DNA of 36,704 bases, taken from the IMG/VR virus record IMGVR_UViG_3300031857_000598, positions 1 through 36,704 of that record; one strand, 5' to 3'. The stretch is from a virus. Positions 11,130 through 35,773 of the stretch are shown one piece after another. The notes under the pieces were generated by a model. The model was not told where the DNA came from. It was given only the letters and a program-made list of their open reading frames with translations, and did no database searches. The stretch's first letter is position 1. Each line of letters begins with the position of its first letter. The position numbers were made by a program, and so were the translations under genes.

Positions 11130-12083
11130 CTATCGATCCGAATAGCCGTACTTGCCTGCCGACGAATAGGCCGGTTTGCTCGGCGTATACCGTGACGTTG
11201 AAGCAGGCGCTGGTGTCGGCGCGGGCGTGTACTTTCCGGTGCGAAGATATCCGATATCTGCACCTTCAAGTCGTGCCATTTCTTGCGATAGCCTGGTGTT
11301 GTATTCTTGCGCCGACTTATCAAGTTCGTACTGCTTAAGCAGCAACTTGTATTCGTCCGCAGCTTGAGACTTGTTCCACGCCTGGACGCTTTTCTTAAAC
11401 TTCATTTCTGTGTTGAATTGATCACGTTGCAATTCTCTCGCCTTGAAGTTCTGTTGCTCTTCAAAATTGCGCTGTATCTCAGCTTGCGTTCCCTGGAAAC
11501 GCTGTGCCTTTTCGTTTTCACCAGCTGCAAAAGCTCGCTGCTTTTCCGCTTCGAGACGGTTGTATTCTTGCTCCATGCCCATCAACTTTTCTTGATGTTG
11601 GCGTTGAGTTAGATTTTCGCCTGAGGTAAACTCGCGCCCCTTCTGCGCCTCGGCTGTTGCAAATGCTCGGCCAAGTGCCGACTCTCCCGACTCAAATTTT
11701 CGCTGAGTTAGATTTTCGCCTGAGGTAAACTCGCGCCCCTTCTGCGCCTCGGCTGTTGCAAATGCTCGGCCAAGTGCCGACTCTCCCGACTCAAATTTTC
11801 GCTGAATATCGGCTTGACCGGCTTGCCACTCGCGCCCTTCTTTCACTTCTTGCTGCTGACGGTTGAACTCCGCTTCCTGGGCACCAATGCCTTCAAGTTC
11901 CTGGCCCAGTTGCTCTTGAGTTTTTTCTGCTACCAGCTGCTCTTGTTTGATAGCTGCGCCACTCTGAAGCGCGCCCATCTGCGCGAATCGACGTTTGAGC
12001 GCATCAGTCGATTGTTGCTGGGACTCGGTCGCTTTTTGCTGCGCTCGCTTTTTCGCTAGCTCGAATACTGATGTCGCTGCCAT
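11130..12083 (-). CDS. Long coiled-coil virion protein with tandem 33-residue repeat
   Basis: A 317-residue protein, nearly all predicted helix and very rich in Gln, Glu, Lys and Arg. Residues 94-159 are two perfect copies of a 33-residue unit starting RKFESGESALGRAF and ending TSGENLTQ. Degenerate relatives follow (RLEAEKQRAFAAGENEKAQRF, EIQRNFEEQQNFKAREL). The last 45 or so residues are Pro/Ala/Thr/Ser/Tyr-rich (YTPAPTPAPASTSRYTP) and probably flexible. It lies directly after the nozzle gene (TAATG overlap) and before the hydrophobic internal proteins. That position suits a virion component whose helix length may matter. No family is recognised. Confidence 0.7.
   Translation of the reverse strand: MAATSVFELAKKRAQQKATESQQQSTDALKRRFAQMGALQSGAAIKQEQLVAEKTQEQLGQELEGIGAQEAEFNRQQQEVKEGREWQAGQADIQRKFESGESALGRAFATAEAQKGREFTSGENLTQRKFESGESALGRAFATAEAQKGREFTSGENLTQRQHQEKLMGMEQEYNRLEAEKQRAFAAGENEKAQRFQGTQAEIQRNFEEQQNFKARELQRDQFNTEMKFKKSVQAWNKSQAADEYKLLLKQYELDKSAQEYNTRLSQEMARLEGADIGYLRTGKYTPAPTPAPASTSRYTPSKPAYSSAGKYGYSDR
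11605..11805. repeat. Perfect 99-bp tandem duplication inside the coiled-coil virion gene
   Basis: Bases 11605-11706 match 11704-11805 without a mismatch, a period of 99 bp (33 codons, in frame). The absence of silent differences implies a very recent duplication or ongoing homogenisation. Confidence 0.95.
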
Positions 12084-26250: not shown

Positions 26251-26746
26251 CAATCTCTTTCAACATAATTTGAGCGATTTTCTCGAGTTTCTGAGAAAAC
26301 GGCCGGTTGGTTCGCGGATCGAATACATCTTCATGATTTTTGCATATCTCTCGGATTATCACAATAGTGCCTTCTTTTGCAGCGTATGTTTTGCTGACTT
26401 TGAGTGCCATAATCTGTCTGTCATCGCAATACGCCAGGCCATTCAAACCGTCGAGAACCGTCTTCGCCAGGTTATCGATGTCGGGGTGAGTGATGTGATG
26501 GACGTGGCGGTTCGTCCGCGCCCGCTCGAACCCGAAAACGAGCTCGATTTCGATAGGCCCCTGCCAGGGACACATCAAGTCCACCCCGCGCGCCTTTTCC
26601 GCTTGCTTTGCCTGATTGAAAAACCAAGCGAACTCGTATTCGGCGTCGGACGTTCTTTTGTCGGTATAGGTGCCGTTTTTGCAGAAACGCGGGCGTGCTT
26701 TTGGAACGGGTTTTGACCAAGCGATGAAGCACAAGTGTCTAGTCAT
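26213..26746 (-). CDS. rusA: RusA-family Holliday junction resolvase
   Basis: A 177-residue protein with SKPVPKARPRF at the N-terminus and THPDIDNLAKTVLDGLNGLAY followed by CDDRQI, the RusA signature with the catalytic Asp residues. RusA dimers cut four-way DNA junctions and clear recombination intermediates before packaging. The C-terminal 50 or so residues (after EICKNHEDVF) extend beyond the compact RusA core of about 120 residues and end near the Cys-rich gene. ATGA overlap couples it to the methyltransferase gene upstream. The recombination set at 32-36 kb provides a clear partner role. Confidence 0.9.
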   Translation of the reverse strand: MTRHLCFIAWSKPVPKARPRFCKNGTYTDKRTSDAEYEFAWFFNQAKQAEKARGVDLMCPWQGPIEIELVFGFERARTNRHVHHITHPDIDNLAKTVLDGLNGLAYCDDRQIMALKVSKTYAAKEGTIVIIREICKNHEDVFDPRTNRPFSQKLEKIAQIMLKEIDDGSITPEVISS

Positions 26747-27765
26747 TTCTCACCCAATAGCATTTGTTCATACACGTTTTTGGCTATTCTTTGCATCATA
26801 AACGGCGGAACACTCATTCCGCAAATGTATTTCATCATCTTTTTCTCGCAATTGAAATCGTCGGGAAACGTTTGCAATCTAAGAAACTGTCTTCCTTCAA
26901 TTTCTTTTGTCTGATTCCAATGACTGTATCTTGCTGCCGCGCATATTGTTGGGCTTACGTTGTCTCCATCAAACTTTGCATAATTGAATCTTAAACCATT
27001 CTGAGTCACATCACCAAAGTCGCCACCTGGCTTGGTTTTTTTCCACAGCACGACGTTATGTGTTGCCATTTCTTTCATGTCACAATCATAATCACTGATT
27101 ACATCTTTGACGGCAATATGCTTTTCCTTGGTTTCTATTGTTACTGTCTTGCCGATTCGATTCGCAATGAAAAAGATTCTCTCTCTTCGTTGTGGAACGC
27201 CCATTTTGGCCGCATTCAATCGAAACAATTGCGTGTTATATCCGAGCATGTTGAACCTATCTAAGATCATTTTGACGAATCCTTTGGCATTCCCTTTCAA
27301 CATACCGGTTACGTTTTCGGCAATTACTATTTTTGGTGAAAGCTTTTCTACCGTGTCCAAAAAATGGGAAAACAACTCATCTAACACTTGCTCAGTTTGC
27401 CCTTCTCGAAAAGCATGTTTCTTTCCCCATTTCCTTTCTCTCGCCCCAGCCATACTAAACACACTGCACGGCGGGCTCCCGTCAAGGATATCTAACTCGA
27501 ACAATTCTGGCGGAAGTTTGCTATTTGGTATCTTGTTGAAATCGACAATTGACATGCAGAATGAGTGTTTCGGAACATGGTTTGCTCGGTATATGTTCAT
27601 CATCTCTTGGTCTATTTCAACACCACCGATCACATCGAATCCGGCAAGTTTGTACCCCATCGTACTACCTCCCGCGCAATGAAAACAACTGAATACCTTC
27701 ACGCCGGTGGGTTTTACTTCTTCCAAGTCTTTCAGTTTCCATGGCCCGTGTTTCAACTCTATCAT
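26743..27765 (-). CDS. DNA (cytosine-5) methyltransferase
   Basis: A 340-residue enzyme with the ordered C5 motifs. Motif I is FSCFHCAGGSTMGYKLAGF (SAM site). Motif IV is DGSPPCSVFSMAG with catalytic Cys at about 100, and motif VI is ENVTGM near 150-155. Motif VIII is PQRRERIFFI, and motifs IX-X are RQFLRLQTFPDDF and GMSVPPF. It transfers a methyl group to C5 of cytosine, probably to hide phage DNA from host restriction. No partner endonuclease is next to it, so it is an orphan. The gene is visibly more AT-rich than its neighbours, suggesting recent acquisition. ATGA overlaps link it to ParB-domain and RusA genes. The recognition site is unknown. Confidence 0.92.
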   Translation of the reverse strand: MIELKHGPWKLKDLEEVKPTGVKVFSCFHCAGGSTMGYKLAGFDVIGGVEIDQEMMNIYRANHVPKHSFCMSIVDFNKIPNSKLPPELFELDILDGSPPCSVFSMAGARERKWGKKHAFREGQTEQVLDELFSHFLDTVEKLSPKIVIAENVTGMLKGNAKGFVKMILDRFNMLGYNTQLFRLNAAKMGVPQRRERIFFIANRIGKTVTIETKEKHIAVKDVISDYDCDMKEMATHNVVLWKKTKPGGDFGDVTQNGLRFNYAKFDGDNVSPTICAAARYSHWNQTKEIEGRQFLRLQTFPDDFNCEKKMMKYICGMSVPPFMMQRIAKNVYEQMLLGEK

Positions 27766-28343
27766 GGTTTTTTCTCGTTGAATTCAAAACCACACTTAGG
27801 GCACTTGTGATCGAATGAATCGAATTCACTTTGGTCTATTTCATTGTCGCTTTCATCATTCGTATCGCCATTTTTTTTCTTTTCTTCCGCTATACCCGCC
27901 AAGTATTTACACGACAACGAATCGAACCCCATCCCTTCCAACGTCGGCATATCTGCGAGCAAGTCGTCAAGCTCGAGGCGCAGCATATCAGCGTCCCAGC
28001 TCGACGTTTCCGCGAGTCGGTTATCGACCAGCGCATACGCCCGGATCTGCGCTTTAGTAAGGTGGCAAGCGCGCACAACTGGCACAACTTCAAGATTGAG
28101 CTTCTTTGCCGCCTCAAGCCGCCCGTGCCCTGCGATGACGGTGTTATCAGCCGCCGCGATTATCGGCGCTAGAAACCCGAATTCTCGAATGCTGGCTGCT
28201 ATCTGAAGCACTTGTTCGGGTGAATGCTTGCGAGCGTTCTTTGCGTACGGGATCAAACTGTCGATCAGAACGTGCTCGAACGTTGCCGTTTCGACGTATT
28301 CACCCGCTACCGACTTCTTTTTTGACTCTACTTTCTTTGCCAT
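27762..28343 (-). CDS. ParB N-domain (ParB/sulfiredoxin-like) protein with C-terminal zinc ribbon
   Basis: A 193-residue protein. Residues 25-105 show the ParB catalytic fold: LIDSLIPYAKNARKHSPEQV, IREFGFLAPIIA and VIAGHGRLEAAKKLNLEVVP (GHGR box). A helical spacer follows (AQIRAYALVDNRLAETSSWD). The C-terminus has DHKCPKCGFEFNEK, half of a zinc ribbon. In phages such domains often accompany or fuse with DNA methyltransferases. Here the stop overlaps the methyltransferase start by 4 bp. A DNA-nicking, CTP-binding or methylase-assisting role is possible. True chromosome partitioning is unlikely because no ParA or long HTH region is present. Confidence 0.85.
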   Translation of the reverse strand: MAKKVESKKKSVAGEYVETATFEHVLIDSLIPYAKNARKHSPEQVLQIAASIREFGFLAPIIAAADNTVIAGHGRLEAAKKLNLEVVPVVRACHLTKAQIRAYALVDNRLAETSSWDADMLRLELDDLLADMPTLEGMGFDSLSCKYLAGIAEEKKKNGDTNDESDNEIDQSEFDSFDHKCPKCGFEFNEKKP

Positions 28344-28350
28344 GGTTACC

Positions 28351-28875
28351 TCATTTCATCAGTGGATCTTCGAGAAGAGCTTTCTGCTCTTTTTCGTGTT
28401 CAGATAGTTGCTTTGTGTCGCATTCCTGTTCCGCGATATACGCTTTCGCCGCTCTCGCGATCCGTATCAGGAATGATGTTTCTGTGTCTACATTCCAATT
28501 GAAATACACTTCAGATGGGGTTATCCCCGCTCTGCTAGCGACTTCTGCGGCTTCTGCGTCCCAACCTTTTTTCGAGTTCGACCAAGCCGCGCCTTTGATC
28601 TGCGCAGTCCACTTATCGATTTTTCCTTCCGTAATTGCTCTGCTTGCATGTATTTTGTCGGCGAGCGTAGGCAACCCAACGCACTCTCGCAAATTGTCCA
28701 GAGTCGGCATACTGTCGTTCGACTCCATCCAAAGAGTAAACGCCTTGAAGGCGAGGTCGTCGGGAAACTGCATCAAAGCGCTGATTCTCGCCGCGAGAAC
28801 TGATTCGGGAATATCTTTGCCAGCGATCTTCGCACAGTCAAGGTACAGTTTGACAAGTCTCTCATATTTTGCCAT
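28351..28875 (-). CDS. Helicase-loader-like replication protein (tentative)
   Basis: ATG 28875 has AAGGA about nine bases upstream and overlaps the end of the replication initiator gene. The frame is open to 28944. The protein has 174 residues and begins AKYERLVKLYLDCAKIAGKD. LAFKAFTLWMESNDSMPTLD follows, a helical pattern with a terminal P-T-L-x-N-L-R-E that resembles the N-domain of phage loaders or inhibitors of the replicative helicase (G39P-like). The C-terminal half is helical and charged. Position directly after an initiator-like gene supports a helicase-recruiting role. It lacks the Walker motifs of DnaC-type loaders. The call is tentative. Confidence 0.55.
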   Translation of the reverse strand: MAKYERLVKLYLDCAKIAGKDIPESVLAARISALMQFPDDLAFKAFTLWMESNDSMPTLDNLRECVGLPTLADKIHASRAITEGKIDKWTAQIKGAAWSNSKKGWDAEAAEVASRAGITPSEVYFNWNVDTETSFLIRIARAAKAYIAEQECDTKQLSEHEKEQKALLEDPLMK

Positions 28876-29959
28876 ACTGCGTTTTTCCTTCTTCAATGGG
28901 CTCGTTCGTGCGAGCCTTTTCTTCTCTAAGACGAAATTGCTCAATCACTCTTCGACCGACGTCATCATTGTGCGAATCCCTGTCCGCTATTTTTGCGGCT
29001 GCTTGGGTGTACCTCACGCCTTTTTTTGCCTGCAACAGTATTGATTCCCAGTTGCTTTCGAGCAACTTAAATGCATGGCCGCATTTCAAAAAAAACTGAT
29101 CGTTGATCACCAGGAAGTGCCGAGCGCACAAAATTGCATCCTCGAGTCCCATCGACTTTGCGATCCGAGCCGCAATCGCGTTTTGCCTGGCGTTGCGAAT
29201 CGGTGCAACTCGGTACCGCTCCTCGTACGCCGCCGCATACGCTTCCCACACCAGCGCGCCCGGCGGGGTCTCAGCGTCGTTCTTTTGCCGTTTTTGGCGC
29301 GTTGGGGTGAGTTTGGGTAACTGAGTCAGGGTCGACACCTTCCCAGCGCTAGAATCGACGATTCCGACTTCCTCCGAAACAGGTACCGAATCGAAGGCGC
29401 TCGGCGCCGGATTCGGTCCGCGCAGCGGGAGCGTTTCCGCGTTTTCGATCGTGTCGGCTGTCGATCGAAGATCGAAATCTTGTATTTGTATTTTCTTCTT
29501 AGGATCAGGATCAGGATCAGGATCAGGATCAGGAAGGTTGACGACCGTTGAACGCCCGTTAACGCCCGTTGAACGCCCGTTAACGCCCGTTGAACGACCG
29601 TTGAACGACCGTTGAGCTGCTGAAGCCTTCCCCGCAGCGCTCTGCTGCATCCGATAGGTTTCAATTTCTTCGAGTCTTTTTCGACTTCCGACAACCTCAT
29701 AACCTTCGTTTTCCAGAACGATAAAACCCGCAAAAGTCAGCGCATCTTTAATTGCTTCGCTTCCCAAAATTATCGCGATAGTTTTGCTGTCAACGTTTGA
29801 CTTTTTCTTGTCTTGGCAGTAATGCCAGAGTGATACCAAAGCGCCGATAACCGCGAACCTGGACTCCTCAAGTGACCAGCCAGCACTCAGTAACGCGCGC
29901 TCGGCTGCGATCAGTCGTGCATCACCAAAAAACTGGTCATCGATGCGCACGTACACCAC
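28862..29959 (-). CDS. Phage replication initiator-like protein with internal repeats
   Basis: The probable start is GTG 29959 (TAGTG overlap with the previous stop, seven G residues upstream); GTG 29950, giving M-RIDDQFFG, is an equally good candidate. The protein has about 365 residues. The N-terminal domain (RIDDQFFGDARLIAAERALL, ALVSLWHYCQDK) matches winged-helix, DnaD/lambda O-like initiators. A low-complexity centre has NGRSTGVNGRSTGV repeats and a PDPDPDPDPDP run. The C-terminal domain (VWEAYAAAYEERYRVAPIRN, FKLLESNWESILLQ) looks DnaD/DnaT-like, a helicase-contact region. The centre coincides with an iteron-like DNA array, as in lambda O, where the origin lies inside the gene. The assignment is by domain pattern and context. 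Confidence 0.7.
   Translation of the reverse strand: MVYVRIDDQFFGDARLIAAERALLSAGWSLEESRFAVIGALVSLWHYCQDKKKSNVDSKTIAIILGSEAIKDALTFAGFIVLENEGYEVVGSRKRLEEIETYRMQQSAAGKASAAQRSFNGRSTGVNGRSTGVNGRSTVVNLPDPDPDPDPDPKKKIQIQDFDLRSTADTIENAETLPLRGPNPAPSAFDSVPVSEEVGIVDSSAGKVSTLTQLPKLTPTRQKRQKNDAETPPGALVWEAYAAAYEERYRVAPIRNARQNAIAARIAKSMGLEDAILCARHFLVINDQFFLKCGHAFKLLESNWESILLQAKKGVRYTQAAAKIADRDSHNDDVGRRVIEQFRLREEKARTNEPIEEGKTQYGKI
29501..29533. repeat. Five AGGATC tandem hexamers
   Basis: Five perfect AGGATC units plus AGG encode the PD run of the initiator protein. They lie just beside an AT-rich stretch (29478-29500) and next to the iteron-like array, so they may belong to the origin. Each unit holds a GATC site. 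Confidence 0.9.
29537..29616. repeat. Iteron-like array, candidate replication origin
   Basis: Seven tandem units of 10-11 bp, alternating GTTGAACG(C/A)CC and GTTAACGCCC, run without spacers inside the initiator gene (29537, 29547, 29558, 29568, 29579, 29589, 29600), with a partial eighth at 29611. The period is about one DNA helical turn, so all sites face one side. Nearby are GATC hexamers and an AT-rich segment. Lambda-type origins have the same composition: iterons plus AT-rich DNA within the O gene. Protein-level low complexity is the alternative explanation. Confidence 0.55.
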
Positions 29960-30186
29960 TATACCCCCCCAAGGAGACGATAAGTCCACTCGCGCTTAAA
30001 GGAGCGATCGGGGTTCCACTCTAGTTTCTGTTCTTTCCGCAATTCCCCGATCGCCTTCAGCGTCATCACGCGCCCGGTGCCGAGCACGTCCGCAATATCA
30101 CTAACGGTTAATTTTGCTTTATTTTTTTTGACAAAAAACTCAAGCACAAGTTTTTTCGTTTCAGCGTACGACCTCTTTTTTTGCAC
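29959..30186 (-). CDS. Winged helix-turn-helix DNA-binding protein
   Basis: The frame is open to a GTG at 30246, but that start lacks a ribosome site and would precede the likely transcription start. GTG 30186 follows GGGGG by five bases and is preferred, giving 75 residues. KKNKAKLTVSDIADVLGTGR then VMTLKAIGELRKEQKLEW is a compact winged HTH (helix, recognition helix, wing with Trp). The protein is short, basic and first in the leftward replication operon. It may regulate the adjacent operator or act as an accessory initiator. The start is uncertain; the HTH call is good. Confidence 0.65.
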   Translation of the reverse strand: MQKKRSYAETKKLVLEFFVKKNKAKLTVSDIADVLGTGRVMTLKAIGELRKEQKLEWNPDRSFKREWTYRLLGGV

Positions 30187-30206
30187 GGGAACCCCCAGCG
30201 ACTTAA

Positions 30207-30236
30207 ATGTACTTATTACGGAATGACATGTACTTA
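30207..30236. promoter_or_regulatory. Direct repeat operator candidate
   Basis: ATGTACTTA occurs at 30207-30215 and 30228-30236, two turns apart (21 bp). Extended 14-bp units (AATGTACTTATTAC and CATGTACTTAATAC) agree at 12 positions. The repeats sit between the winged-helix gene and its probable promoter, where a repressor would block transcription. Confidence 0.5.
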
Positions 30237-30259
30237 ATACAGACACAGTAGAAAGTCAA
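30231..30259 (-). promoter_or_regulatory. Probable leftward early promoter
   Basis: On the minus strand TTGACT (30259-30254) lies 17 bp before TAAGTA (30236-30231), a good -35 and a weak -10; TATTAA at 30239-30234 is an alternative with short spacing. The -10 region coincides with one of the direct repeats. It would drive the replication operon beginning with the winged-helix gene. Confidence 0.4.
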
Positions 30260-31945: not shown

Positions 31946-32260
31946 TCAATTTTGAGGTTCTTGAGCTTTTTTTTGCAACTGGTTGACTTCGGTAGACTCT
32001 TTTTTTGGTTCGTTCTTCCGGTTGCGCCGCCGGCTGGGCGAAACCCAGTCTGGCGATTCCATCGCGGCACGGAAAACGAACTCAACTCTAGTACCTGCTC
32101 GACGTTGCTCAAGACGGCAACCCGCGCCGTACGCTTTGTGGGCGTATTCCGGTGCAAGTATCGGGCTCAGAGTCATCACAAGCTCACCTTCTCTCTCCTC
32201 AATTGGCACTTGCCGCAGCTCAGAAAAGCGCCGAAACCGTTGCTCGTATGTTGGCGTCAT
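31946..32260 (-). CDS. Small charged protein, unknown
   Basis: A 104-residue, very Arg/Glu/Lys-rich protein. YEQRFRRFSELRQVPIEERE opens it, RLEQRRAGTRVEFVFRAAME forms the centre, and SPSRRRNRKNEPKKESTE makes a basic tail. The start overlaps the stop of the SbcC-like gene (ATGA). The composition suggests nucleic-acid contact. No family is recognised. Confidence 0.6.
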   Translation of the reverse strand: MTPTYEQRFRRFSELRQVPIEEREGELVMTLSPILAPEYAHKAYGAGCRLEQRRAGTRVEFVFRAAMESPDWVSPSRRRNRKNEPKKESTEVNQLQKKAQEPQN

Positions 32261-33753
32261 TTTACTACCTCGCAGGTTAGCGGTGATTGCACAACTCGTT
32301 CGACGATAAGTTGAAAACCGCCTACCGATTTCTTCTCGTCAAGCAGGTCTTCGTGTTGGATAAACAGAAGCTTTTCAAGCGGATCGACTCGTTTGTTTCT
32401 AGCTAGCAGTCGAGACAATTCTATGCAAAAACGAATCTGTTCCGCACTCGATAGCCGGTCAATTTCCGTGGGCGGTTCGATTCGCTTAATATTGACTGAG
32501 TTCTCGTCAAAATCAAACGCAAAGTTTGGCATAGAAATGCACTCGAGCTTCGCTTTGAGCGCCAGCGGCAACACGCCCGTTCGGAGGTCGGTTGCTGCAA
32601 GCTGAGCAAGTAGATTCTGCTCTGCTAGCTCAATTGTTTTCATCTTCTCAGTTGCCTTCGCGCCTGCTTCTTTTCGCTCTTTCACAAAAGCGGCAATGCG
32701 TTCTTCTACGGAAGCTGGCGGTGAAGGAAGCATTCGCCGCTCCATCCGCGTCGGTATAGACTTCCTGAACTCGTCAATTGCTTTTCGCTGCTGTAGCTCA
32801 ACTTCTCCCAACGCAAAGCACTCTTTCTTCAGCTCCTCGCACGATTTTATGTACGCGTCTACTTTGGCAGAAAGGATCTCTTCGCGCTTCGCTGCATCCG
32901 CCCAGTCGCGCCCACACGTTGGGCACTTAGTTGTAAACGTGTCGTGTTGTTTCTGTGCGTCAACTAGTAGCTTCTCGCATTCTGAAAGCTTGCCCACCGC
33001 TTGATTCTTTTTCGAGTTCGCGCTGCGATATTGCTGCATCATCGATTGGTATTTTGGATCTTTCTCGAAGGTATCGATGCGCAAGTTGACCGCTTCCGCC
33101 TGCTTGTTGTGATCTGATACTTGCTGCGCCAGTTGAGCATACGTGTCCATTTCCATCCTAAAATGTTGGCGCATCAATTCAAGTTCATCTTCGGTATATG
33201 CCGACTTCTTTTTCAGTTCCTCTTTGTCTACCAGCACTTTGTCTAGCTTTGCAGTCAATTGTTTGCGAAGTGACTCGTGAGTTTTCTCGGAATATCCATC
33301 GGGAAGCTTAACTCCGTCGAAACGCTCGTCTGCCAGCTTTTGCAGGTTTATTTCAGGCGTAACAGATTGCAAAAATGCACGCCTTTGCGCCGTTGTCAGG
33401 TCGAAAAACAGGCCCGGCCAAAACATGATCGCCCAGATCTTCGCGGGACATCCCAATTTCGCCGCAACATGTTCCTGTGTGACTTTTGCACCGTCAAGCT
33501 CCAGCAATGTTGCTCCGTTCCAACGTTTCCTTCTCAGCCCGAACGAGTCGAACTCAAATGAGATGTCTGACTCCCTAACCGCTGCGGGGTCGGGAACTAG
33601 CTCAGTTCCGAGGCCGGTTAGCGCGAGCAACAGCGCCCGCATCAAAGACGTCTTGCCGCTCCCGTTTTTTCCGCTCAGCACCGTGATTTTCCCGATCGAA
33701 TATTCGCCGACCGGTATCACGTTGCTGCTGTGTACGATAATTTTCGATAACAT
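32257..33753 (-). CDS. SbcC/Rad50-like SMC-type ATPase
   Basis: ATG 33753 with GAGGAG seven bases upstream gives 498 residues. Walker A SGKNGSGKTS is at 27-36. A long coiled coil spans about 170-380 and includes KCPTCGRDWADAAKRE, a Cys-x2-Cys zinc hook. The C-terminal ATPase half has IDRLSSAEQIRFCIELSRLL (ABC signature) and LLFIQHEDLLDEK (Walker B, D-x-x-D/E). Rad50/SbcC proteins tether DNA ends for a nuclease partner. No SbcD nuclease is next to it; the RecE-like exonuclease downstream in the operon may be its partner. The coiled coil is shorter than in bacterial SbcC (about 1000 residues), as in phage mini-SbcC types. Confidence 0.85.
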   Translation of the reverse strand: MLSKIIVHSSNVIPVGEYSIGKITVLSGKNGSGKTSLMRALLLALTGLGTELVPDPAAVRESDISFEFDSFGLRRKRWNGATLLELDGAKVTQEHVAAKLGCPAKIWAIMFWPGLFFDLTTAQRRAFLQSVTPEINLQKLADERFDGVKLPDGYSEKTHESLRKQLTAKLDKVLVDKEELKKKSAYTEDELELMRQHFRMEMDTYAQLAQQVSDHNKQAEAVNLRIDTFEKDPKYQSMMQQYRSANSKKNQAVGKLSECEKLLVDAQKQHDTFTTKCPTCGRDWADAAKREEILSAKVDAYIKSCEELKKECFALGEVELQQRKAIDEFRKSIPTRMERRMLPSPPASVEERIAAFVKERKEAGAKATEKMKTIELAEQNLLAQLAATDLRTGVLPLALKAKLECISMPNFAFDFDENSVNIKRIEPPTEIDRLSSAEQIRFCIELSRLLARNKRVDPLEKLLFIQHEDLLDEKKSVGGFQLIVERVVQSPLTCEVVK

Positions 33754-33773
33754 AATATAGCTCCTCACCGGAC

Positions 33774-34529
33774 TCAGTACGGTATGTCTGAGTCCGCTTC
33801 TTCGTCTTGTTGTGTTTGCTGCGGCGCTGGCGGCTCGGATCGCAGCAACTCTTTAGACGCCTTGGACGGGCGCCCACGCCGGGGAGCCTGGGCAACCGGT
33901 TCCGGCGTCTCTTCCTGCGTCTCGACGACTCGAGCCGCCTGAGCCTGAGCTGGTGCCGCCACTGCTTGCGCTATCGCTGCAACGTGGGGCTTGCGAACCT
34001 GCACGTCATCGCCCGCATCTTCCCACTCTTCAACCGAGTGCAGGCCAAAAATCGCATCGGGAATGGTCGAGCGAATCAGTTTCAGCGCCGCGCGGTAGCG
34101 AAGCATCTGGTCGGGCTGTTGTGCCCAGGCGGGCGAGTTCCGCTTGAGTTCCATGCCTGCCATTGCGCGTATCTCGGTACCACCGACCGCTGAAGTAGCA
34201 ACGCAACGCAGTTCCGCTCCCTGGCCAGACATCTCGTATGTGATCGGTCGGTCGAGCCGCCCGCTGCGGTTCGCGAGAGCGATAGCTAGCTGAGCACTCA
34301 TCGCCGGTCGCCCGTCGATCAAATACATGTTTTGCAACGCCATCATTGGGTCGATTCCGACTCTGAAGGCCATCTGGCAAACGATAAAACAGTCTTCGAT
34401 TTTCCCTCGAAACGCACTCGGCACTAGCGAGCTTTTCGCAAAAATGGCCGCCGCCTTAAACGCTTGGTCGTATTTCTCGCTGTCAAGCCAGACTTGGTTA
34501 CTGTCGATTTTAACGACTAAATTTGTCAT
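33774..34529 (-). CDS. RecT-like single-strand annealing protein with SSB-like acidic tip
   Basis: A 251-residue protein. Residues 20-60 (YDQAFKAAAIFAKSSLVPSA, GKIEDCFIVCQMAFRVGI), then DPMMALQNMYLIDGRPAMSA and QQPDQMLRYRAALKLIRSTI with AIFGLHSVEE, are the core pattern of RecT-superfamily phage annealing proteins. A Pro/Ala/Gln-rich tail follows, with RRGRPSKASKEL, which resembles an AT-hook, and the protein ends DEEADSDIPY. The ending closely mimics the D-D-D-I-P-F tip of bacterial SSB, which recruits repair proteins. It anneals complementary strands after exonuclease resection. It lies between SbcC-like and exonuclease genes. Confidence 0.8.
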   Translation of the reverse strand: MTNLVVKIDSNQVWLDSEKYDQAFKAAAIFAKSSLVPSAFRGKIEDCFIVCQMAFRVGIDPMMALQNMYLIDGRPAMSAQLAIALANRSGRLDRPITYEMSGQGAELRCVATSAVGGTEIRAMAGMELKRNSPAWAQQPDQMLRYRAALKLIRSTIPDAIFGLHSVEEWEDAGDDVQVRKPHVAAIAQAVAAPAQAQAARVVETQEETPEPVAQAPRRGRPSKASKELLRSEPPAPQQTQQDEEADSDIPY

Positions 34530-34530
34530 A

Positions 34531-34758
34531 TTACACCTTTTGCAGTCTGTTTTGGAGTTCTTTGATTTCCGTATCGACTGTTTGATCCGACAATTCTCTC
34601 ATCACTCGTTTAGATATTTTGTGCTCGCCACACCAATCTGAATCGGGGTAAACGGCGGGGTATCCCTTAATGCTGGGAGCACTGCGTTTACAGCGAAAAC
34701 TCTCGTAATACATACATGAAGCGCAAGTGAATGTTGCGTTATTTAGCCATTTATCCAT
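34531..34758 (-). CDS. Small Cys-rich protein
   Basis: A 75-residue protein with AGAGGTG before the ATG. FTCASCMYYESFRCKRSAPS and SDWCGEHKISK give four Cys (C-x2-C...C...C) and a His, a likely single metal site. The C-terminal helix (DTEIKELQNRLQK) may be a coiled coil. It lies 1 bp after the RecT-like gene start side in the same operon, between annealing protein and exonuclease genes. It is probably an accessory of DNA metabolism. Confidence 0.65.
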   Translation of the reverse strand: MDKWLNNATFTCASCMYYESFRCKRSAPSIKGYPAVYPDSDWCGEHKISKRVMRELSDQTVDTEIKELQNRLQKV

Positions 34759-34771
34759 GGGTCACCTCTGC

Positions 34772-35560
34772 TTAATACTGGTTAATTTCGTTCTTCAGAT
34801 AGTAGGGTATCAGAATTTCTTCTATCTCGGTACTATAACCTGGCCAGGTCATTTTTTCAATACATTCTTTCAGTATTTTCCTGGCTTTTTCGATATTCTT
34901 TCGGCCGTATTGCAACACTTCCTCCGGTATCGCGTAGACCATAACGTTGTACGGAGCGACATTCTCTACGCAAACGATTGCCGGCGTAAACGACTCAAAG
35001 CCGTTTTCTGCTAGACCTTCTCGGTAAAACTCCATTTGAAAGTCGTACCCATGGTCGAAGAAGTCACGCGAAAAGCTCCTCGGCGAAGCGTCCCGTGTGG
35101 TCTTGAGGTCGACGAATATATGATCGTCTCGGATAAGATCCGGCTTGCACTTATAGTCTACTCCGTCTTTGTGCCACGATAAGCCGAGTTCTACCAGGCC
35201 ACCTTGCACCAAACGCCCCGCCTGGGGGTGAGAGTTGATAGCGTTCGTCATGGTGTAAACTTCGGCCATTTCCTCGCTCTTGAGCACAGACAAACCTAGT
35301 GACTCCGCTCTCCCAATTGCATCTTTCACCGCATTGCTGTTGCGGTTCCCGTCAATAGCGATAAACCGTTGCGCAAACGCGTTTGGCTCGAGCACAGCGC
35401 AATGCACTGCTGAGCCAATTAGCATTGCCTTAGACTCGGAATAGTCTTCACTTTTTTCGACTGCTACGCGGTAATGTGCTGGGCTTTGCAATATCTGCTT
35501 TAAGTGACTTTGTCGCACTGCTTTTGTCTGATTGTACTGTCCGTTCGTGATTTTCGACAT
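34772..35560 (-). CDS. RecE-like PD-(D/E)XK exonuclease
   Basis: ATG 35560 (AAGGA eight bases upstream) gives 262 residues. The frame reaches 35731, but the first 57 codons overlap the RHH gene and lack a ribosome site. LKQILQSPAHYRVAVEKSED and GSAVHCAVLEP open the fold. KPDLIRDDHIFVDLKTTRDA is the PD-x(9-10)-DxK catalytic core (Asp141, Asp151, Lys153), and DFQMEFYREGL is the Q-x3-Y motif IV. It resembles the nuclease domain of RecE and DUF3799 proteins, which digest the 5' strand for RecT annealing. Its 5' end overlaps the RHH gene by 113 bp in another frame. Confidence 0.85.
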   Translation of the reverse strand: MSKITNGQYNQTKAVRQSHLKQILQSPAHYRVAVEKSEDYSESKAMLIGSAVHCAVLEPNAFAQRFIAIDGNRNSNAVKDAIGRAESLGLSVLKSEEMAEVYTMTNAINSHPQAGRLVQGGLVELGLSWHKDGVDYKCKPDLIRDDHIFVDLKTTRDASPRSFSRDFFDHGYDFQMEFYREGLAENGFESFTPAIVCVENVAPYNVMVYAIPEEVLQYGRKNIEKARKILKECIEKMTWPGYSTEIEEILIPYYLKNEINQY

Positions 35561-35696
35561 ATGGCCAATCCTTTCTGTCAAAAAATTCCTCAAAAATTTG
35601 CTTGCATGTATCTTGTATTGTTGCCGATCGCATCGATGCCTCGACGCGAATCTTCGCATGAAGCGGGTCAGGAATGATGAAACGTATCTGAGCCAT
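35448..35696 (-). CDS. Ribbon-helix-helix DNA-binding regulator
   Basis: An 82-residue protein with GGAGGT shortly before the ATG. AQIRFIIPDPLHAKIRVEAS is the beta-strand and first helix, and MRSATIQDTCKQIFEEFFD the second helix, of an Arc/MetJ/CopG fold. The remainder (DWPYVENHERTVQSDKSS and a basic end) overlaps the exonuclease gene. RHH dimers bind short inverted repeats in tandem; alternating GGCAAT/ATTGCC half-sites lie just upstream of its gene. Autoregulation of the recombination operon is the natural inference. Confidence 0.8.
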   Translation of the reverse strand: MAQIRFIIPDPLHAKIRVEASMRSATIQDTCKQIFEEFFDRKDWPYVENHERTVQSDKSSATKSLKADIAKPSTLPRSSRKK

Positions 35697-35712
35697 GTGA
35701 CCTCCGGTTGAA

Positions 35713-35773
35713 ATTGCTGATAGGCAATCAATTGCCTTCAGGCAATCTAGTACAACCGGATTTAAAAGGCAAT
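35713..35773. promoter_or_regulatory. Alternating half-site operator array
   Basis: ATTGC (35713-35717), GGCAAT (35723-35728), ATTGCC (35731-35736) and GGCAAT (35741-35746) alternate in orientation with centres roughly one turn apart. A further GGCAAT lies at 35768-35773. The array lies directly upstream of the RHH gene, whose family binds such tandem sites. Confidence 0.6.

Follow-up and report, generated by a model that had tools for sequence, protein, structure and literature searches.

A candidate phage replication origin, with helically phased iterons and an adjoining short tandem run, within the linker codons of an initiator gene

The window, i.e. the whole stretch of DNA analysed here, spans 36,704 bp and is a virus record from IMG/VR. 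It contains a putative replication initiator gene with a small gene upstream and a putative helicase loader gene downstream, and three repeat or compositional elements lie inside the initiator gene itself:

27762-28343: ParB-like protein gene (phrog_620), two genes downstream of the initiator
28351-28944, minus strand: putative helicase loader gene, downstream of the initiator, in a P/G39P-like position, with a low-confidence helical model
28862-29989, minus strand: gene for the putative replication initiator (375 aa), which has a winged helix at its N-terminus, then a disordered linker and a helical C-terminal domain
28925-29251, minus strand: initiator C-terminal domain, phrog_11527-like, helical (weak match)
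29478-29500: AT-rich stretch of 23 nt, 3' of the run in the gene, encoding KKKIQIQ
29501-29534: short tandem run, (AGGATC)5.7 on the plus strand and (CCTGAT)n on the coding strand, perfect, encoding PDPDPDPDPDP
29537-29616: iteron array of 6 good and 2 worn 10/11-bp units with the nearly palindromic core CGTT(N)AACG
29600-29965, minus strand: codons of the N-terminal winged-helix domain (residues 9-130, AlphaFold2 model)
29609-29641, minus strand: basic motif SAAGKASAAQR, where the last helix ends, immediately ahead of the iterons
29959-30246, minus strand: small gene upstream of the initiator and overlapping its start, with weak HTH similarity (E 0.0046, below cut-off)

The putative loader gene occupies the place of lambda P and SPP1 gp39, and its product matched no family in profile searches. 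Right after it, the ParB-like gene is followed by a C-5 cytosine DNA methylase gene (26743-28343); a ParB-like gene ahead of a DNA methylase gene is a common phage pairing. Upstream of the replication module, at 32257-35731, lie genes for an SbcC-like ATPase, a RecT-like annealing protein and an exonuclease VIII-like protein. Elsewhere in the window, a perfect 99-bp tandem duplication (2 copies, 11605-11805) was noted within a probable structural gene, and Rfam and tRNA scans of the window were empty.

The AlphaFold2 model of the initiator has pLDDT values mostly of 80-97 across residues 11-120, and disorder is predicted for the linker encoded by the repeat array. A Foldseek search of the N-terminal domain against the PDB returned nothing at E<=0.001, and VIA-align gave middling winged-helix matches only (Z up to 6.7), those at Z 4.9-5.4 including 4pql, 5kbj ('Structure of Rep-DNA complex') and 4pt7 ('Structure of initiator'). 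The sole family matched by the protein is phrog_11527, through residues 247-355 (E 7.4e-8). Searches against Pfam and NCBIfam gave no match for the initiator, nor does the Pfam model of DUF1376 (PF07120) match its N-terminus, and no close relative of the whole protein was found in viral, genome, phage and plasmid collections. The fold model, together with relatives that carry the same iterons and are initiators, points to a putative DNA-binding initiator.

The original prediction of a repeat array inside an initiator-like gene is borne out, as phased 10/11-bp units lie within the ORF at 28862-29989. It had counted seven to eight units over 29470-29616. The array proper begins at 29537 and consists of six good units, in the order GTTGAACGCCC, GTTAACGCCC, GTTGAACGCCC, GTTAACGCCC, GTTGAACGACC, GTTGAACGACC, with the worn units GTTGACGACC and GTTGAGC at its ends; the proposed alternation holds for the first four good units, the last two being identical (GTTGAACGACC). 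The spacing of 10,11,10,11,10,11 (D1 family) gives a mean unit of about 10.6 bp, i.e. one helical turn as had been claimed. Within the window, CGTTNAACG (four copies) and CGTTAACG (two copies) are found in the array and nowhere else. The AGGATC units and the AT-rich stretch indeed adjoin the iterons, and the 40 nt directly past the run have a GC content of 32%. Since all three elements lie inside a minus-strand ORF, their order along the gene is iterons, hexamer run, A-rich stretch. The iterons reach a period-21 score of 36, against a maximum of 13 in 100 dinucleotide shuffles of the whole window, and the hexamer run a period-6 score of 28, against a maximum of 11 in dinucleotide shuffles; neither score was attained by any of 2000 synonymous recodings of the initiator gene. 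Successive iteron units fall in different codon frames, CGTTCAACG being read as R-S-T and GTTAACG as V-N-G, and what the units have in common is DNA. A second period-6 run, (GTTGGT/C)13, is located near the record end (255-333), away from the iterons, so hexamer runs occur in other contexts too.

As searches with the window protein gave no relatives, DNA was used instead. Viral contigs were scanned for three iteron units (CGTTNAACGNNCGTTNAACGNNCGTT), which yielded at least 120 stretches and at least 103 distinct arrays; 84 of these arrays, among the matches listed, are in initiator-like ORFs at a sufficient distance from contig ends. In these collections, which are mostly metagenomic contigs and in which locus independence was handled by near-duplicate removal only, 74 of the 84 distinct loci among the matches listed have a tandem repeat of period 5, 6 or 7 at most 150 nt away on the 3' side of the iterons. 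Such a run lies on the 5' side in 1 of the 84 and is missing from 10 (again among the matches listed), and it was seen in 29 of 4,481 control windows (0.65%). Its period among the iteron-seeded loci listed was 5 in 14 loci, 6 in 24 and 7 in 36, and homologous N-terminal domains up to 52% identical bear runs of differing period. The primosomal family phrog_9327 was matched by 31 of 37 scanned proteins (36 iteron-seeded genes plus the window), and others matched replication-initiation families; DUF1376 was found as the N-terminal domain in 23 members of this set and Lin1244_N in 8. The window initiator and its iteron-seeded relatives have AGKASA..R of the basic motif in common. Among individual phages, Methylophilaceae phage P19250A has the same iteron DNA as the window, and Pseudomonas phages PfAn1 and AH02 show a similar layout beside a P or helicase-loader gene. 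By sequence comparison, the two-part layout recurs in more than 100 further initiator genes of phages, whatever the reading frame. The AGGATC units, originally described as a mere neighbour of the iterons, do adjoin them, but this comparison makes them the second, recurrent half of the element.

A second set of relatives was obtained through the run and the N-terminal domain. A scan for (AGGATC)4 gave 62 loci, many with iteron-like repeats adjoining the run, and N-terminal domains without linker fetched three initiator families, a fourth coming from a single sequence. With near-duplicates removed, a period-6 run score of at least 12 was found in the linker in 30/43, 24/37, 20/27 and 3/4 members by family and in 5/1118 control windows; the first of these families were seeded from run-bearing loci and their relatives fetched without the run, a link of which the iteron scan is free. 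In the three larger families, the autocorrelation of the 75 nt ahead of the run peaks first at lag 11, or 12 in one family, and a second time at lags 22-24. The run itself has a median GC content of 50-67% by family and is often not AT-rich. Such low AT is unusual for an unwinding element, and AT-rich unwinding element alone is a poor description of it.

Periods of 5 and 7 are incompatible with dipeptides, which argues that the run was selected as DNA; the ORF stays open for at least 58 codons beyond runs of these periods. In one family with a CAGGAA-type hexamer, 31 representatives read the run as QE/QD or the like and 8 read it as TG/GT/GA/VS/EA/RT; on a tree of modest branch support, the reading frame switched at least 7 times. 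In the second of these frames (frame 1), A is kept at two codon third positions against a background of 16% A there, the purine hexamer class being partly defined by those A's; without class selection, A three bases apart was found in 49 of 50 strong runs of two purine-class families. In two loci (L150 and L152, 2001-2500), the stop codon of the initiator falls inside the first iteron and leaves the N-terminal domain alone, so that iterons and run are non-coding past the stop, and in L150 an AT-rich region comes after them. An RN/KN frame (L121, L128) was set aside, as single-base indels relative to near-identical loci truncate the ORF and may reflect sequencing errors or broken genes. The comparison across relatives indicates that iterons and run are conserved as DNA, not as peptide. 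The original prediction had hinged on DNA-level conservation of the repeats among related initiators, and this conservation is kept across reading frames.

On the coding strand the run is purine-rich in two families and pyrimidine-rich in a third family and in the window. Opposite run classes occur despite homologous C-terminal domains in 34 gene pairs, the C-terminal domain having been swapped between initiator families in the relatives, and both classes are served by homologous downstream helicases and loaders. HDW-type genes with the iteron sequence of the window are still of the pyrimidine class (L340, L349, L352). Being independent of C-terminal domain, helicase or loader, and iteron sequence, the run class follows the family of the N-terminal domain. 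This suggests that the N-terminal module of the initiator itself may use the run.

An iteron origin embedded in an initiator gene, of the lambda and SPP1 kind, is already known. Lambda ori in gene O has initiator-binding repeats within the initiator gene, an adjoining opening region and a loader gene (P), to which the iterons, the candidate opening region and the putative loader gene of the window would correspond; unlike the window, it has four 18-bp iterons and an A-rich region with no period-6 run, and none was found in lambda O or TP901-1 rep when these were examined. The likeness to lambda drawn originally is supported for iterons plus an A-rich region in an initiator gene, but does not extend to the run. 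SPP1 oriL in gene 38, compared by description, likewise has repeats in the initiator gene beside the loader gp39, and consists of direct repeats and an AT-rich region (PMC6316719). In phage-inducible island (PICI) origins, iterons and a presumed melting site are also tied to the rep gene, but the AT-rich region lies 3' of the gene, with one iteron set on either side of it (PMC6092414). Iteron plasmid origins have helically phased iterons, like the window, and an opening region such as is proposed for it; their opening region is AT-rich, and a location in linker codons is not described there (PMC5043065). DUF1376 phage initiators, including ydaU of the Rac element of E. coli K-12, carry an AGKAS motif, repeats and a degenerate AAAGAT/ACAGAT run, and differ from the window, whose protein has no DUF1376 match; several DUF1376 phages have no run. 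An active origin, oriJ, has been reported for Rac (PMC3945230). In the bacterial basal unwinding system, as is proposed for the window, double-strand sites adjoin a one-sided short-period single-strand element, the DnaD recognition element consisting of pairs of TnnT (PMC10201434); that system is chromosomal, with a 3-nt period, DnaA and DnaD, whereas the phage relatives have periods of 5-7 and phage initiators. By analogy, DnaA-trios and the DnaD recognition element would be the nearest functional counterparts of the run. The short tandem run beside iterons is the new part, and it seems not to have been described before: in the open-access literature iterons in phage initiator genes are described and the adjoining run is not, which is weak evidence.

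Homology and anatomy together make 29478-29616 very probably a phage replication origin within the linker codons of its own initiator, the same two-part layout recurring across phage initiator genes. GC skew, proposed originally as a check, shows along the window no sign change of the kind that marks an origin. Winged-helix domains would bind the CGTT(N)AACG units, one per helical turn, and the array would wrap into one complex. The resulting strain would open the DNA on the 3' side, across the short tandem run and the A-rich stretch, the latter (29478-29500) being, by composition only, the candidate opening region beside the repeats. Being strand-asymmetric, with a repeat of 5-7 nt, the run could serve as a repeated single-strand landing site held by the initiator or a tied partner, and the neighbouring putative loader would place the helicase at the opened run. 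It is tempting to speculate that phage origins in general have such a run as their second element, i.e. a frame-blind, repeated 5-7-nt single-strand site read by the N-terminal module of the initiator, an independent counterpart of DnaA-trios and the DnaD element. Such a site would let an origin open where no AT-rich region is present, and would direct helicase loading to a specific strand. We put this broader proposal forward tentatively, as somewhat short of probable.

To our knowledge, lambda and SPP1 are among the few phages for which much is known of how the initiator opens the origin. A signature of two parts, 11-bp iterons and a 5-7-nt run, is recognisable from sequence alone and would mark origins in many uncultured phages. 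It would also explain the odd dipeptide runs of phage replication proteins (QEQEQE, PSPSPS, PDPDPD) as DNA elements, and provides a direct test of how generally origins are opened by way of short-period single-strand motifs like those known from bacterial oriC.

A possible but rather doubtful refinement is that the run is a TnnT-type element akin to the DnaA-trio or DnaD recognition element. The window run has T every 3 nt on the coding strand, purine-class hexamers keep the A of positions 2 and 5 with a conservation of at least 98% in either frame, PHROGs labels one initiator family DnaD-like, and DnaD requires pairs of TnnT (PMC10201434). Nevertheless, TnnT does not hold in CCGTCT runs (11 loci), the triplet phase is lost at periods 5 and 7, and orientation relative to the iterons varies among families. 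Given the misfit of CCGTCT runs and of periods 5 and 7, the TnnT reading remains a refinement of the iteron-plus-run origin. A general rule of A or T every third base was rejected on these same exceptions.

Alternatively, the iterons could be the origin and the hexamer run a neutral microsatellite generated by replication slippage in a tolerant linker. Slippage does act, since near-identical loci (L120-L143) differ in run length by whole units, from 30 to 54 nt, and the predicted disorder of the linker would allow it. Yet the run is retained in these loci and is kept on the 3' side in 74/84 loci among the matches listed, each family uses a small set of related units, the hexamer survives frame switches with A kept at third positions in frame 1 against the 16% background, and the run persists where it is non-coding (L150, L152). 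A purely neutral run is therefore unlikely. An operator or a ParB-type centromere, in place of an origin, is a very improbable reading of the array: the ParB-like gene lies only two genes downstream, but the position of the array is fixed within initiator genes across families, and the pairing of the ParB-like gene with a DNA methylase gene is a common one in phages. Weakest of all is a protein-level role as dipeptide or heptapeptide spacer in the linker, for although the unit pair of 21 nt (7 codons) and the run unit of 6 nt (2 codons) give clean peptide repeats in the window, this is hardly tenable with relatives having iteron spacings of 11-12 and run periods of 5 and 7, with related DNA encoding differing peptides (QE, TG, GA, VS, EA, PS, PD), with window units in different frames and with non-coding cases.

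Two further observations concern the relatives. An HNH-endonuclease-like insert lies between the initiator N-terminal domain and the iteron/run region in four loci, on the basis of profile matches among A1 members (L043, L013) and by eye (L156, L184). Moreover, initiator-gene repeats in a Vibrio phage record (L248:1555-1584) are annotated as 'CRISPR spacer', and are probably misread repeats.
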